DNA of 33,006 nt from Candidatus Martarchaeota archaeon (GTDB lineage Archaea > Micrarchaeota > Micrarchaeia > Micrarchaeales > Micrarchaeaceae): NCBI GenBank assembly GCA_023473395.1, contig JAMCYO010000034.1, positions 1-33,006 of the forward strand, in the 5' to 3' direction. A model generated the notes under the pieces. That model had not been told where the DNA came from. It saw nothing but the letters and a program-made list of their open reading frames with translations, and searched no databases. Shown one piece after another: positions 3,400-26,158 of this stretch. Positions within the stretch are counted from its first letter, which is position 1; each line of letters begins with the position of its first letter. A program made the position numbers and the translations under genes.

Positions 3400-4833
3400 T
3401 CATGCTATTGAATTGGTCGTATCCAGTTTTATGAGGCGCTTGAGCTCAAGCGAATATTCAAGCGGCAGAACCTTGACAAGCGGTTCTATGAAACCTAGAA
3501 CAGCTGTAGCAATGGCGTCGTCCTCTTTCAGGCCTCTGGACATCATATAAAAAAGGTCGTCTTCAGCCAACCTTCCCACCGTGGCTTCATGGCTCACGAA
3601 AGCGTCGTTTGCGTAAATCTCGTTATACGGGTATGTGTTGGTCTTTGCATCCCTGTCCAAAAGCAACGCATCGCATTTGACGCTGGATTTTGAATTATAG
3701 GCCTTTTTGTCTATGTGGATAAGGCCGCGATAAGAAGCGACGCCGCTTCCCTTGGAAACGCTTTTCGATATTATCTGCGATGTAGTATTAGGTGCAAGGT
3801 GGTAAGCCTTTCCGCCGGAATCCTGCGTCTGCTTTTCCCCTGCTACTGCTATTGAAAGTATCTCGCCGCGTGCACCCTCTTCCTTAAGGAAAACGCTTGG
3901 ATATTTCATGTTTACCTTACTGCCTATGTTGGCGTCTATCCATTCCACATTCCCATTCTCATAAACATATGCCCTTTGCGTAACGAGGTTGTACACGTTT
4001 TTGGACCAGTTCTGCACGGTAACATACCTTATATGGGCGTTTTTGTGAGCTACGAGCTCAACTACTGCCGCATGCAATGAAGAACTTATGTATATCGGCG
4101 CAGTGCAGCCTTCAATGTAAACTACCTCGCTGCCTTCATCCGCTATTATCAGCGTGCGCTCAAACTGTCCAGCCTTTTCCGCATTTATCCTGAAATAAGC
4201 CTGCAGCGGCATGGAAAGCCTTACGCCTTTTGGTACGTATATGAACGAGCCTCCAGACCACACTGCGGTATTTAATGCAGCATATTTGTTGTCGCTAGGC
4301 GGTATTATGTTGCCGAAATATTTTTTCACTATTTCGGGGTGCTCCTTCACCGCGTTGTCCATGTCAGTAAATATGACTCCAAGCTTTTCCAGTTCCTCTT
4401 TGACGTGGTGGTACACAACTTCAGAATCAAACTGTGCTTCAGCCCCCGCGAAGAATTTCCTTTCTGATTCCGGTATCCCGAGCTTGTCGAACGTATCCCT
4501 TATGTCCTTTGGCACGTTATCCCAGGAATCGCTTTTCTTCGCGTTTGGCTTGAGGTAATAATATATGTCATCATAGTCTATGCCGCTGAGATCTGGTCCC
4601 CATTCTGGCACGGGCTTTTCCTTGAATATCCTATAACCCAAAAGCCTTTTTTCTAGCATCCAATCGGGTTCGTTCTTGCTTCTGGACAACTGCCTTATAG
4701 TCTCTTCAGAAAGCCCCTTAATTACTGTCTCGTAATCGTCCTTAGTCTTGAAGCCGTACCTCTCTAAGTATTCATCTTCCTTTTGCATTACGTTCTGCGT
4801 CTCGTCTTCAACCATTATTAAGCACCAAAACAT
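3400..4833 (-). CDS. sufB: Fe-S cluster assembly protein SufB
   Basis: WSGGSFIYVPKGVRLSMPLQAYFRINAEKAGQFERTLIIADEGSEVVYIEGCTAP...SHEATVGRLAEDDLFYMMSRGL. An alternative start is the in-frame Met at MVEDETQ. Confidence 0.96.
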   Translation of the reverse strand: MFWCLIMVEDETQNVMQKEDEYLERYGFKTKDDYETVIKGLSEETIRQLSRSKNEPDWMLEKRLLGYRIFKEKPVPEWGPDLSGIDYDDIYYYLKPNAKKSDSWDNVPKDIRDTFDKLGIPESERKFFAGAEAQFDSEVVYHHVKEELEKLGVIFTDMDNAVKEHPEIVKKYFGNIIPPSDNKYAALNTAVWSGGSFIYVPKGVRLSMPLQAYFRINAEKAGQFERTLIIADEGSEVVYIEGCTAPIYISSSLHAAVVELVAHKNAHIRYVTVQNWSKNVYNLVTQRAYVYENGNVEWIDANIGSKVNMKYPSVFLKEEGARGEILSIAVAGEKQTQDSGGKAYHLAPNTTSQIISKSVSKGSGVASYRGLIHIDKKAYNSKSSVKCDALLLDRDAKTNTYPYNEIYANDAFVSHEATVGRLAEDDLFYMMSRGLKEDDAIATAVLGFIEPLVKVLPLEYSLELKRLIKLDTTNSIA

Positions 4834-4840
4834 GATTCAA

Positions 4841-4859
4841 TTATAACTCGGTTATAACT
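4841..4859. promoter_or_regulatory. Direct repeat TTATAACT-N3-TTATAACT, candidate suf operator
   Basis: TTATAACT at 4841-4848 and 4852-4859 (11-bp period), between the TATA-like box and the sufB start. Confidence 0.4.
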
Positions 4860-4864
4860 GTGAT

Positions 4865-4876
4865 AATATTTAAACC
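4865..4876 (-). promoter_or_regulatory. Putative TATA box of the suf operon
   Basis: Minus strand GGTTTAAATATT, about 35-40 nt upstream of the sufB start; predicted TSS near 4845. Confidence 0.5.
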
Positions 4877-4978
4877 TTATCCGGAAACTTCTGACGCAAC
4901 CTACAAAAGAAGCAAACCAGATAAAGGTATAAACATATTTGTTACAAAAATACTATCGTTAAAACCTAAGGTGTAAAT

Positions 4979-6607
4979 ATGCCAGTAAGCACATTTTCAA
5001 ACGAGTCTACTTATAGAAAAATGGTCGAATCGGGCCAAGAGTCAAAATTCGACGAACTGTTCGATCAGGCAGCCAAATCCGCGCTTGCGGGCTTCGGGAA
5101 AACGTTTCCGATGTACATTGGCGGAAAACAGGTTTATGCAAGTTCTGTCCTTGAGGAGAGGTCTCCAATTGACCGGAAAGTGCTAATAGGAAAATTTCAA
5201 AAGGGTACCAGGGAAGATGCGAGGTCCGCCATATCTGCGGCGCGCAAGGCTTTTGCCCAGTGGGGCCTGCTTGAATACAAGGCGCGCCTCGAGGTATTCA
5301 AGAAAGCAGTGCTGAAGTTCAGGGAGAAGAAATTCGAGCTTGCGGCAATATTGAGCTACGAGAACGGAAAATCGCGCTATGAATCGGTGGGAGAAGTGGA
5401 CGAGGCGATAGACTTCATCAACTACTACATAACTGAAATGGAAAGGAACAGGGGCTATTCTAGGAAAAACCTGATAAGCCAGAGCACTGTAAAGGTAAAG
5501 GCGGGTTTCCAGGGCGCCCCAGCGGAAAAAACAGAGAAAATAACCATAAAGCTCAAGCCTTACGGCGTCTTCGGGGTGATAGCGCCGTTCAATTTCCCTA
5601 TATCGATATCAGTAGGGATGAGCACCGGTGCCTTAATAACTGGAAATACTGTTGTATTCAAGCCTTCATCTACCGACAACATGTCAATGCTTACTGGATT
5701 AAAGATATACGAAATATTCAAGGAATCCGGAATGCCTGACGGGGTTTTCAATTACATTACTGGCCCAGGTTCAGAAGTAGGAGACGAGCTTGCGGTGAGC
5801 AAGGATGTTGATGGAATAGCATTTACCGGTTCAAGGGACACAGGAATGAGCATGGCTGCCCGTACTTACGCCCAAAGGTTGCAGAAGGTTTTCGTCGTTG
5901 AAATGGGCGGCAAAAATCCAGTCATAGTAACAAAGCATGCAGAGATCGAAGAGGCGGTTGAAGGGGTAATAAGCGCAGCTTTCGGCTTTGCCGGACAAAA
6001 GTGCAGCGCGCTTTCAAGGGTATATGTGCACGAATCAATAAAAGAAGTATTCCTCAGCAAGCTTATAGCGCGGGTGAGGGAGCTTAAGGTAGGCAATCCA
6101 TTGGCTAAAGAAAATTACATAGGCCCGCTTATAAGCGAAGGTGCATATAAAAGATATGTGGAATCTGTGGAAAAAGCGAAATCTGCCGGAAGGATGCTCT
6201 ACGGCGGTTCAAGGGTTAAGACGGATCTTGATGGATTCTATGTCGAACCTGTGATAGTCGAAATACGCCACGACCACGAACTCGTGCATAAGGAGCTGTT
6301 TCTCCCATTCATAACTGTTGAGAGTTTTAACGACTTTGGCGATGCGATAAGGATGGCCAACGACGTAGAATACGGGCTTACTGCAGGCATGTATAGCAAA
6401 AACAGGGTGGAGATAAGAGAATTCGAAAAGCGCATAGAGGCAGGCACGGTATACGTAAACAGGGCAATAAGCGCAACTACTGGTGCGATAGTAGGCATGC
6501 ACACGTTCGTGGGATGGAAGGGCAGCAGCCTTACTGGAAAAGGCACCGGCAGCAAATTCTATCTCCAGCAGTTCATGAGGGAGCAGAGCTTTTCGGTCAC
6601 GGGTTAG
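4979..6607 (+). CDS. Aldehyde dehydrogenase family protein (P5C dehydrogenase-like)
   Basis: VIAPFNFPISISVG, GIAFTGSRDTG, VVEMGGKNPVIV, GFAGQKCSALSRV (catalytic Cys), ALDH C-terminus. Confidence 0.93.
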   Translation: MPVSTFSNESTYRKMVESGQESKFDELFDQAAKSALAGFGKTFPMYIGGKQVYASSVLEERSPIDRKVLIGKFQKGTREDARSAISAARKAFAQWGLLEYKARLEVFKKAVLKFREKKFELAAILSYENGKSRYESVGEVDEAIDFINYYITEMERNRGYSRKNLISQSTVKVKAGFQGAPAEKTEKITIKLKPYGVFGVIAPFNFPISISVGMSTGALITGNTVVFKPSSTDNMSMLTGLKIYEIFKESGMPDGVFNYITGPGSEVGDELAVSKDVDGIAFTGSRDTGMSMAARTYAQRLQKVFVVEMGGKNPVIVTKHAEIEEAVEGVISAAFGFAGQKCSALSRVYVHESIKEVFLSKLIARVRELKVGNPLAKENYIGPLISEGAYKRYVESVEKAKSAGRMLYGGSRVKTDLDGFYVEPVIVEIRHDHELVHKELFLPFITVESFNDFGDAIRMANDVEYGLTAGMYSKNRVEIREFEKRIEAGTVYVNRAISATTGAIVGMHTFVGWKGSSLTGKGTGSKFYLQQFMREQSFSVTG

Positions 6608-14044: not shown

Positions 14045-14140
14045 AATTGGTTTTTCGTTCCTACCTATAATAATATTTCTGTGCTTAATCAAGTATACTA
14101 AGGCAAAGGTGGTCATGCGTCAGGCAACAGCAATGAAACA

Positions 14141-14932
14141 ACGTTAAAGTTCGTTTACGGAGAGCCGGCCCTTATCCTAAAAGACAAAAAGAGGAATTGG
14201 CTGGTCATCGGAGACGTGCACATCGGCGCAGAGCGCAGGCTTTCAGAAAAAGGGGTAAGGGTGTATGAGGTTTGGAAGGCGATGGCCTCAAAAATACTCA
14301 CGCTGTCGAAAACCTTTTCCGTTACTGGCGTCATATTGCTTGGGGACATAAAAGACAGCATATTATACCCAGAGTCGTGGGAGCAGCGTGACATAAAGCT
14401 CTTTTTCGGCGAGCTTTCGGGCCTCGAGGTCAAGATGCTCAAGGGCAACCACGACGGCCACATAAACGATCTGCTAAGCATGGAAACGCATGAAGAGCTA
14501 ATGGTAGGCGACTATGCGCTCTTGCATGGGAACAAATGGCCATCGGAAAAAGCTATGAAAAAGCGCAACATAATAACAGGCCACAACCACATAGCGGTCA
14601 ACATAATCGATGAGAACGGGGCGGTGTACTCGGAAAAAGCCTACATAATAGCCAAAGCGGACAAGGACAAGATAAAGGAATTCTACGCAAATTCGAAAGC
14701 GGAAAAGCTTATCGTGATGCCGGCTTTCAACCCCCTCATAATGGGAATGCCGGTAAGCAAGGAGCGCCCTGACAAGGAGAACATAAACCCACTGCTGAGG
14801 AACGGGCTTTTCAATTATGGCGAAGCCGACGTGTATTCGATAAACGGCTCGTACATGGGGAAAGTAAAGAATCTAAGCGCAGCAAAGCCAAGGGCGCAAC
14901 TGCCAAAGAAAAAAAGGCACGTCAGTCTCTGA
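14141..14932 (+). CDS. Metallophosphoesterase (COG1407, ICC-like); apparent ACG start
   Basis: Frame reads (ACG)-LKFVYGEPALILKDKKRNWLVIGDVHIGAERR...GDIKDS...KGNHDGHI...LLHGNKWP...TGHNHI. The listed ORF (14216 GTG) would cut off the catalytic GDVH. No ATG/GTG/TTG between the upstream in-frame TAA (14099-14101) and the conserved N-terminus. Confidence 0.85.
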   Translation, partial: TLKFVYGEPALILKDKKRNWLVIGDVHIGAERRLSEKGVRVYEVWKAMASKILTLSKTFSVTGVILLGDIKDSILYPESWEQRDIKLFFGELSGLEVKMLKGNHDGHINDLLSMETHEELMVGDYALLHGNKWPSEKAMKKRNIITGHNHIAVNIIDENGAVYSEKAYIIAKADKDKIKEFYANSKAEKLIVMPAFNPLIMGMPVSKERPDKENINPLLRNGLFNYGEADVYSINGSYMGKVKNLSAAKPRAQLPKKKRHVSL

Positions 14933-24232: not shown

Positions 24233-24901
24233 CTACCTTACCACGGTTCCGCTGTGCTTTTCCCTTTTTATTGCTTTTTCTATTCCTTCTATGCTTTTGT
24301 CCAGAAAGTGCAGCTCCGCCTTAGACCTTTTCGCTATCTTGCACGCTATTACATCGAATATAAAGCTCGACCGGGCAACCCTGTCATCCCCCTTCATTGC
24401 AAGTTCTATTAGCTTGTCCATTGCCATTTCCTCAACGAAGTTGCCTTTTTCGTCATAAAGCCCTTTCGGAGTGCTTACGTTTATCACGTGCGTCGCATCG
24501 GCCGACTCCGCTATAAGCATGGTGACGGTATCTGTGCTTATTCCAGGTATAAGCCCCCCAGTAACTATCACGCTGCTGCTGCCAAGTTCCTTTCTTATAC
24601 CGTTTGCGCTTCCCACATATACTGTTGAAATACTCCCGAGCGCAGCATGGATTAACCAAGCATTGAGGTATGTCGTCTGTATGCCTATGTTATCCTTTAT
24701 GAATTCAGAAACGCCGAACTTTGCGGCAGCTGAGATATATTTTTTACTCGTAAAGCCGCCGCCAACTACTATTACGAATTTTGTACCCGAAGAAGCATGC
24801 TTGTTTATGAGCCCGGCGAAGTCCCTTATGAATTCGACATCAAGTTCTCCGTCTTCCTTTGTAAGCGTGCTTCCTCCAAGCGAAATCGCTATGGTTCCCG
24901 T
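24233..24901 (-). CDS. pyrH: Archaeal UMP kinase (amino acid kinase family); apparent ACG start
   Basis: Frame after the upstream TGA: (ACG)GTIAISLGGSTLTKEDGELDVEFIRDFAGLINKHASSGTKFVIVVGGGFTSKKYISAAAKFGVSEFIKDNIGIQTTYLNAWLIHAALGSISTVYVGSANGIRKELGSSSVIVTGGLIPGISTDTVTMLIAESADATHVINVSTPKGLYDEKG... The listed ORF (24616) begins at an internal GTG. Confidence 0.85.
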   Translation of the reverse strand, partial: TGTIAISLGGSTLTKEDGELDVEFIRDFAGLINKHASSGTKFVIVVGGGFTSKKYISAAAKFGVSEFIKDNIGIQTTYLNAWLIHAALGSISTVYVGSANGIRKELGSSSVIVTGGLIPGISTDTVTMLIAESADATHVINVSTPKGLYDEKGNFVEEMAMDKLIELAMKGDDRVARSSFIFDVIACKIAKRSKAELHFLDKSIEGIEKAIKREKHSGTVVR

Positions 24902-26158
24902 TCACTCGCCCAAATCTATGGTATCCCCAACTTTCGGTGCATAAGCCTCGAACCCTTCGCCTCGCAAACCGTCGGCGAAAGCTTCTGTATTTTCCGGGCT
25001 TCCATGCACGCACACGACCTTGTTCGGAGCGCTTTCCCTTACGAAATTGTAAAGGTCACTCATCCCTGAATGCGCAGAAAAATCATAAAAGCCTACCGGT
25101 ATCCTGAATTCTCTGTCAACTTCTTCAACATATATCTTTCCAGTGTCCATAAGCCTCCTTCCGTTGGTTCCCTCTACCTGGTAACCAGTAAGGAATACTT
25201 TAGATTCGTTGTTCAGCCTTGTTATGTAATGCATCGCAGGCCCACCGCTCAGCATGCCTGCGGTAGTTACCACCACAGAACCACCCTGCAATGCCTCCCT
25301 TCTATCCGCCACGTCGGTTACCCAGTTGCATTCGTTGGCCGCCTTGGCGAGCATGTCGGCATTGGCTATGAACTTCCTGTTGGAGAGCACTATTTCGGTA
25401 GCTTCCCTTGCCATTCCGTCTATATAAGTCCTTTCTATCAATCCGTTTTTGTACAGCACTGCAAGCAGCTCCTGGCTCCTTCCAACTGCAAATGCCGGAA
25501 CCAGCGCAATGCCGCCATTGTCCGTAACTTCCTTTACATTTTCAATAAAGTCTTTGACCAACTGTTTCCTGTCAGGGTGCTCCCTTGTTGCGTACGTTGA
25601 CTCTATTATCATTACGTCGCACCTTACCGGTTTCGCGCCCTCGTGCAACAGCTGCGGCGATGCCTTGAAATCTCCAGTATACAATATTCTTTTGTTGTCC
25701 TTCGCGCCGTTGCGTTCAACAAGCGTCAGCGCGCTGCCAGCAATGTGCCCGGCGTCGAAAAGCTCTATGTCGAAATTACCAAGCTGTATGCGTTTTTTGT
25801 AATCTACTTGCATGAACCTTTTCGAAAATTTTTCGAGCTGCCTTTTATGGAAATTTATCTTCGTATGCTCTTTTCTCGATATCTTTATCGTGTCGTTCAG
25901 CAAAAGTTCCGAGAGCCCGAGCGTGGGGCTGGTTCCTATCGTCGGCATTGACATTTCATTGTACAGCGCAGGCGCAGAACCGCTATGGTCCAGATGCGCA
26001 TGGCTCAGAATGAAAGCATCCGCTTTCGGAACGACAGTGGGATATTCGGCACCCTCGTCGATTTTGGTGCCGTAGTCAAACAGCAAATTTCTTTTGTCTT
26101 TGAGAAATATCGCTGAGCGCCCAACCTCGTGTGCGCCTCCATAAAAACTTAATTTCAT
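24902..26158 (-). CDS. MBL-fold/beta-CASP ribonuclease (COG1236-like)
   Basis: FILSHAHLDHSGSAP, YTGDFKASPQLL, beta-CASP region VPAFAVGRSQELL, TAGMLSGGPAMHYI, FSAHSGMSDL, CVHGSPENTEAFADGL. Confidence 0.92.
   Translation of the reverse strand: MKLSFYGGAHEVGRSAIFLKDKRNLLFDYGTKIDEGAEYPTVVPKADAFILSHAHLDHSGSAPALYNEMSMPTIGTSPTLGLSELLLNDTIKISRKEHTKINFHKRQLEKFSKRFMQVDYKKRIQLGNFDIELFDAGHIAGSALTLVERNGAKDNKRILYTGDFKASPQLLHEGAKPVRCDVMIIESTYATREHPDRKQLVKDFIENVKEVTDNGGIALVPAFAVGRSQELLAVLYKNGLIERTYIDGMAREATEIVLSNRKFIANADMLAKAANECNWVTDVADRREALQGGSVVVTTAGMLSGGPAMHYITRLNNESKVFLTGYQVEGTNGRRLMDTGKIYVEEVDREFRIPVGFYDFSAHSGMSDLYNFVRESAPNKVVCVHGSPENTEAFADGLRGEGFEAYAPKVGDTIDLGE

Follow-up and report, generated by a model that had tools for sequence, protein, structure and literature searches.

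Probable translation initiation at ACG in the UMP kinase gene and a few other genes of a Micrarchaeota genus

The window analysed here is a 33,006-nucleotide stretch of DNA from a genome (G000) of the Micrarchaeota genus to which Ca. Micrarchaeum harzensis belongs. For the latter a finished circular chromosome was obtained from PacBio and Illumina reads (PMC8975820); genome G002 (single contig, 989,838 bp) was taken as this organism. On the minus strand, pyrH occupies positions 24233 to 24901 (222 codons) and encodes a probable archaeal UMP kinase (PyrH). The frame matched TIGR02076 (E 1.8e-39, residues 5-221; 135.7 bits, below the curated cut-off of 158), PF00696 and solved archaeal UMP kinases, the best of which were Pyrococcus-type uridylate kinases (e.g. 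2bri, aligned from residue 4). It was the sole UMPK match in G000. Upstream on the same strand lies its partner, a 418-aa beta-CASP ribonuclease (MBL + Beta-Casp + RMMBL; 24902-26158), ended by a TGA at 24904-24902. The next codon in the pyrH frame is an ACG (24901-24899), which is the proposed initiation codon. A weak purine-rich stretch resembling a Shine-Dalgarno (SD) sequence (GGGCGAG; 24905-24915, minus strand) stands 3 nt 5' of the ACG and reads GGGGAG in three congeners; a strict matcher scored it as "no SD".

From 24907 to 24866 the minus-strand sequence is GAG TGA ACG GGA ACC ATA GCG ATT TCG CTT GGA GGA AGC, with GGC before the GAG. The preliminary description of this DNA had stated that pyrH has no ATG, GTG or TTG before the GGS loop and that the ACG directly follows the beta-CASP stop; frame, adjacency and coordinates were all correct. 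Within the stop-to-stop frame (24901-24233), the first canonical start is a GTG 95 codons in (codon 96). Initiation there gives only a 127-aa stub, and annotation under table 11 would cut the sole UMP kinase found in the genome to this size. Use of a downstream start, or decay of pyrH to a relic, was judged very improbable. ATA (24890-24892, minus strand), a codon that table 11 includes among its starts, had been named as the next option but was rejected, as GTA is found in its place in G003. An internal start would drop the GGS loop, and against a relic the pyrH frame is intact at 72-75% protein identity in five species, in each of which it is the only UMPK match.

These five species (G000, G001, G003, G004 and G005) share the junction GAG TGA ACG NNN ACC RTA GCR. 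Codon 2 varied (GGA, GGT, AGC, GAT, GAA; Gly, Gly, Ser, Asp and Glu) while the ACG was constant. Four-fold degenerate pyrH columns with an invariant residue retained one codon in all five species in 8 of 57 cases. Among the all-Thr columns that contain ACG, 3 of 10 were ACG throughout, the start column being counted among them, and codon retention alone is therefore weak evidence. The window lies in a draft genome of 41 contigs, and faulty sequencing or assembly, or a minor allele, was considered as the cause; the agreement of five separately assembled species had already refuted this for pyrH, further ACG cases in the finished M. harzensis genome (G002; e.g. Rrp42 and aIF5B) cannot be draft errors, and the explanation was given practically no weight. 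A single-base indel between the GTG and the kinase frame was likewise ruled out, the junction being common to all five species.

More distant relatives carry ATG at the same place. In G006, a sixth congener (63% identity), ATG GAC ACC ATT stands at the aligned pyrH Met, and in G025, from another genus, the beta-CASP/pyrH junction reads GGT GAA TAG ATG CGC AAC ATT. In many other Micrarchaeota loci an ATG precedes the first Gly of the GGS loop by 8 codons, a distance equal to that of the ACG. The beta-CASP gene also precedes pyrH in G006 and, in other genera, in G025 and G023. Because the stop in G025 is directly followed by ATG at the homologous junction, the simplest assumption is that stop-ATG was the ancestral layout and that the T became C in the line leading to the five species. 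UMP kinase was not found in G002, in which a 20-kb stretch (480001-500000; L135) consists of N and may hide the gene. In another family, pyrH of G053 (L016) reads TAA ACG AAG AAA ACC and has no canonical start; this is a possible independent case from one genome.

Two further explanations were drawn from the architecture of the junction. Beta-CASP and pyrH share one frame and the stop adjoins the ACG, as would suit read-through of the TGA into a beta-CASP/UMP kinase fusion protein. However, the stop-ATG of G025 and the different frames of the two genes in G006 mark separate proteins as the ancestral state, and other ACG genes have no long in-frame gene upstream; we gave read-through hardly any chance. 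Initiation in another frame, at a GTG overlapping the TGA (GTGA), followed by a frameshift into the kinase, was held to be just as improbable. GTGA is found at the junction in all five species, and 4-nt overlaps of this type are common in operons, but the GTG is made of a conserved Glu codon and the stop, and codon 2, the site of any shift, is different in every species. Moreover, G025 has TAG-ATG with no GTGA, and the other ACG genes are without such an overlap.

Synonymous sites around the pyrH start (24880-24945 of the window) were unusually conserved in the five species, which hints at constraint at the RNA level.

A second gene of the window, encoding an SbcD-like metallophosphoesterase (14102-14932, plus strand), had been described as showing the same pattern. 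This was correct insofar as no canonical start precedes the GDVHIG motif; the ACG that is a possible, weak start in the window's genome (14141-14143, plus strand) lies off the aligned position of the congeners' ACG or ATG. There, G002, G004 and G005 read ACG TCG GAA AAA versus ATG TCG GAA AAA in G003, and in the three ACG species an ATG nine codons downstream is a possible start. The phosphoesterase thus appears to back an ACG-start pattern only weakly.

A search for further genes with ACG at the aligned Met and no ATG, GTG or TTG, as had been suggested, was productive. For the exosome subunit Rrp42 (NF003282), G002, G004 and G005 carry GTGATTTTACGGG, with ACG at the start position; three species have ATG, as GTGATTTTATGGG in G000 and G003 and GTGATTGCATGGG in G001. 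A membrane protein with no match in a Pfam and NCBIfam profile search showed GGTG-N5-ACG CAY AAR GGN in 7 of the 8 genomes of the genus, the search pattern itself having required ACG, and in the genomes read no other in-frame start was found nearby. Adenine phosphoribosyltransferase (Apt) has ACG in G002 and ATG in G003, with the same 10 nt (aagtgattta) ahead of the start in both. ACG was also found in aIF5B of G002 (ATG in five others; a TTG lies a few codons upstream also in G002), in an Lhr-type helicase of G000 after AGGTGAT (ATG in five others), and in cobalamin adenosyltransferase of G002 and G003 (ATG in G000). On the minus strand of G002, the start regions lie at 173573-173603 for Rrp42 and at 708376-708410 for aIF5B. 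A G001 protein with a pilin-like N-terminus reads GCGTGATTAA ACG GGT AAA GCA CAA TCC. SD sequences were strong in Rrp42, Lhr, the adenosyltransferase and the membrane protein, and weak in pyrH and the phosphoesterase. These comparisons give good support to the proposal that this lineage initiates at ACG: the codon is conserved in pyrH (5 species), the membrane protein (7) and Rrp42 (3), and ACG in some species stands against ATG in others in Rrp42, Apt, aIF5B and the Lhr-type helicase.

In G001, aIF5B (L190, ORF of 1116 codons) contains an apparent intein in the nucleotide-binding loop, ending ...GLIVHN before TTLLDKIR.

Two genes appear to start with near-cognate codons other than ACG. RNase HII lacks a canonical start in G000, G001 and G003, where ATA is found at the likely Met position (L181, codons 44-46 of the ORF at 4469-5296; L189; L210), preceded by GGTG in G000 and G001 and by GGTGGT in G003. 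For a SpeE-like protein (L129:8109-8879, L217 and L174), the apparent start is ATC in G002 and ATT in G003, both behind GGTGATTA(A/G), and ATG in G000. These genes bear on the idea, also raised in the preliminary description, that ACG is edited to AUG in the mRNA as in plant organelles. One C-to-U change would turn every ACG case into AUG, but C-to-U editing cannot make ATG from ATA, ATC or ATT, so that RNase HII and the SpeE-like gene would not be mended. We know of no mRNA editing of the C-to-U start-codon kind in archaea. Editing was accordingly disfavoured and regarded as improbable, though the least so of the rival explanations. ACG-to-AUG editing is known in chloroplasts (PMC9845219), and the plant-organelle cases are alike in that ACG stands in the DNA where AUG is needed; they differ in that no sign of editing was noted for Micrarchaeum and in that ATA, ATC and ATT starts appear to coexist with ACG in its genomes.

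For a genus-wide survey, approximately 0.34-0.76 Mb from each of four members were used and orthologous frames were paired, with the coding onset placed from codon-position substitution patterns in the paired orthologues; 571 families passed. Canonical starts in the surveyed genomes were ATG (975), TTG (138) and GTG (90). Sites were retained if one species had a canonical start and the other a different codon, with an SD match of at least 5 nt and a stretch free of canonical starts reaching 15 codons upstream and 8 downstream. Four sites passed, ACG in 3 and ATC in 1, and nothing else. Opposite internal Met, ACG made up 79 of 3,182 noncanonical codons (about 2.5%); at this chance rate, at least three ACG among four sites has p near 6e-5, a value that serves as a guide only, the numbers being small and the filter having been tuned while looking. 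A codon scan found no genome-wide enrichment of ACG after SD motifs, where ATG stands out (GGTGTT-N3-ATG, z 15.8); ACG starts are therefore rare, in roughly 1% of genes. An in-frame stop directly preceded the near-cognate start in 6 of about 11 families, compared with 13.6% of canonical starts; as the filter favours such cases, this excess is suggestive only. Two other approaches were discarded. A tally of genes without canonical starts from BLAST boundaries was too noisy, with conserved upstream leaders and shadow frames intruding, and column-wise codon enrichment near coding boundaries was confounded by SD composition.

Near-cognate starts are known from bacteria, in which infC (ATT in E. 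coli, ATC in Streptomyces) and sigR (GTC) are under IF3 control (PMC5472188). The resemblance lies in initiation without ATG, GTG or TTG, which possibly keeps expression low or regulated. However, infC and sigR are single regulated genes, whereas in Micrarchaeum ACG recurs in housekeeping genes and the initiation factors are archaeal, with no IF3. For eukaryotes, initiation at a mammalian ACG triplet and at that of Sendai virus P/C is among the work cited in PMC9845219. In these cases, too, the codon is ACG and mismatches the CAU anticodon at position 2 alone. Eukaryotic and viral ACG initiation works by scanning; the initiation proposed for Micrarchaeum differs in being archaeal and either SD-led or coupled. 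In a study of prokaryotic start-codon evolution, among 61,358 ancestral AUG starts 2 had changed to CUG and 1 to AUU, and ACG is absent from the text of the paper (PMC5622118). There, as here, related genomes differ in their start codons; several ATG/ACG differences were found among our 571 families. Open-access papers yielded no description of ACG as a start codon in Micrarchaeota or any other archaea, which is not proof of novelty; if true, stable use of ACG to start housekeeping genes would, as far as searchable papers show, be the first archaeal report. Table 11 does not allow ACG as a start, and annotation pipelines will therefore shorten such genes or miss them. The fidelity of start-codon choice in DPANN archaea can be tested in the cultivated Ca. 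Micrarchaeum harzensis, for which RNA-seq exists.

For the ACG starts, position, conservation and exchange with ATG were seen directly; that ribosomes start there and insert Met we infer from sequence comparison. On this basis, pyrH and a few other genes of the genus very probably start translation at ACG, a reading limited by small counts that were drawn from a search through many families. An altered initiator anticodon (CGU, pairing with ACG) was not found in G000, G002 and G003, in which the initiator tRNA has a CAU anticodon, A1-U72 and three G-C anticodon-stem pairs. Start codons are proofread in archaea by aIF1 (SUI1; review PMC7531240). Loss of this fidelity factor was not found in the 8 genus members, all of which have it, and thus no obvious loosening of start selection was detected. 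With a normal CAU tRNA and aIF1 present, the simplest reading is near-cognate initiation by the normal tRNA, aided by the SD. We consider it likely that ACG initiation is of this rare kind, with the ordinary CAU initiator tRNA, usually a strong SD and, at pyrH, probable help from reinitiation. The ACG at 24901-24899 would be read as Met through a near-cognate match. A small set of genes would start in this way, and at least two others apparently at ATA or ATC/ATT; most of these genes carry a strong Shine-Dalgarno sequence (GGTG or GGTGAT) about 3-5 nt upstream.

At pyrH, ribosomes terminating at the adjacent TGA would probably reinitiate at the ACG and so offset the weak SD; a contribution from reinitiation is likely here, given the weak SD and a TGA that both adjoins the ACG and closes a long upstream gene. 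Termination-reinitiation, which had been suggested from the TGA-ACG adjacency, thus fits pyrH, where the stop ends a 418-aa gene. Most of the other cases are different, in that no gene is ended by the in-frame stop before the start. Where such a stop directly adjoins the start, the open frame that it closes is mostly short, and reinitiation is therefore no general explanation. A broader proposal is that the initiation code of Micrarchaeum is relaxed, with ACG and, more rarely, AUA, AUC and AUU as regular, evolutionarily kept starts in conserved, essential genes, through mismatch tolerance in the P site, modification of the initiator tRNA or aIF1; this was regarded as tentative and rather unlikely.

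A second CAT tRNA, tRNA-Met(CAT), of about 120 nt was found in G000 and G001; its anticodon region is interrupted by an intron of roughly 45 nt.
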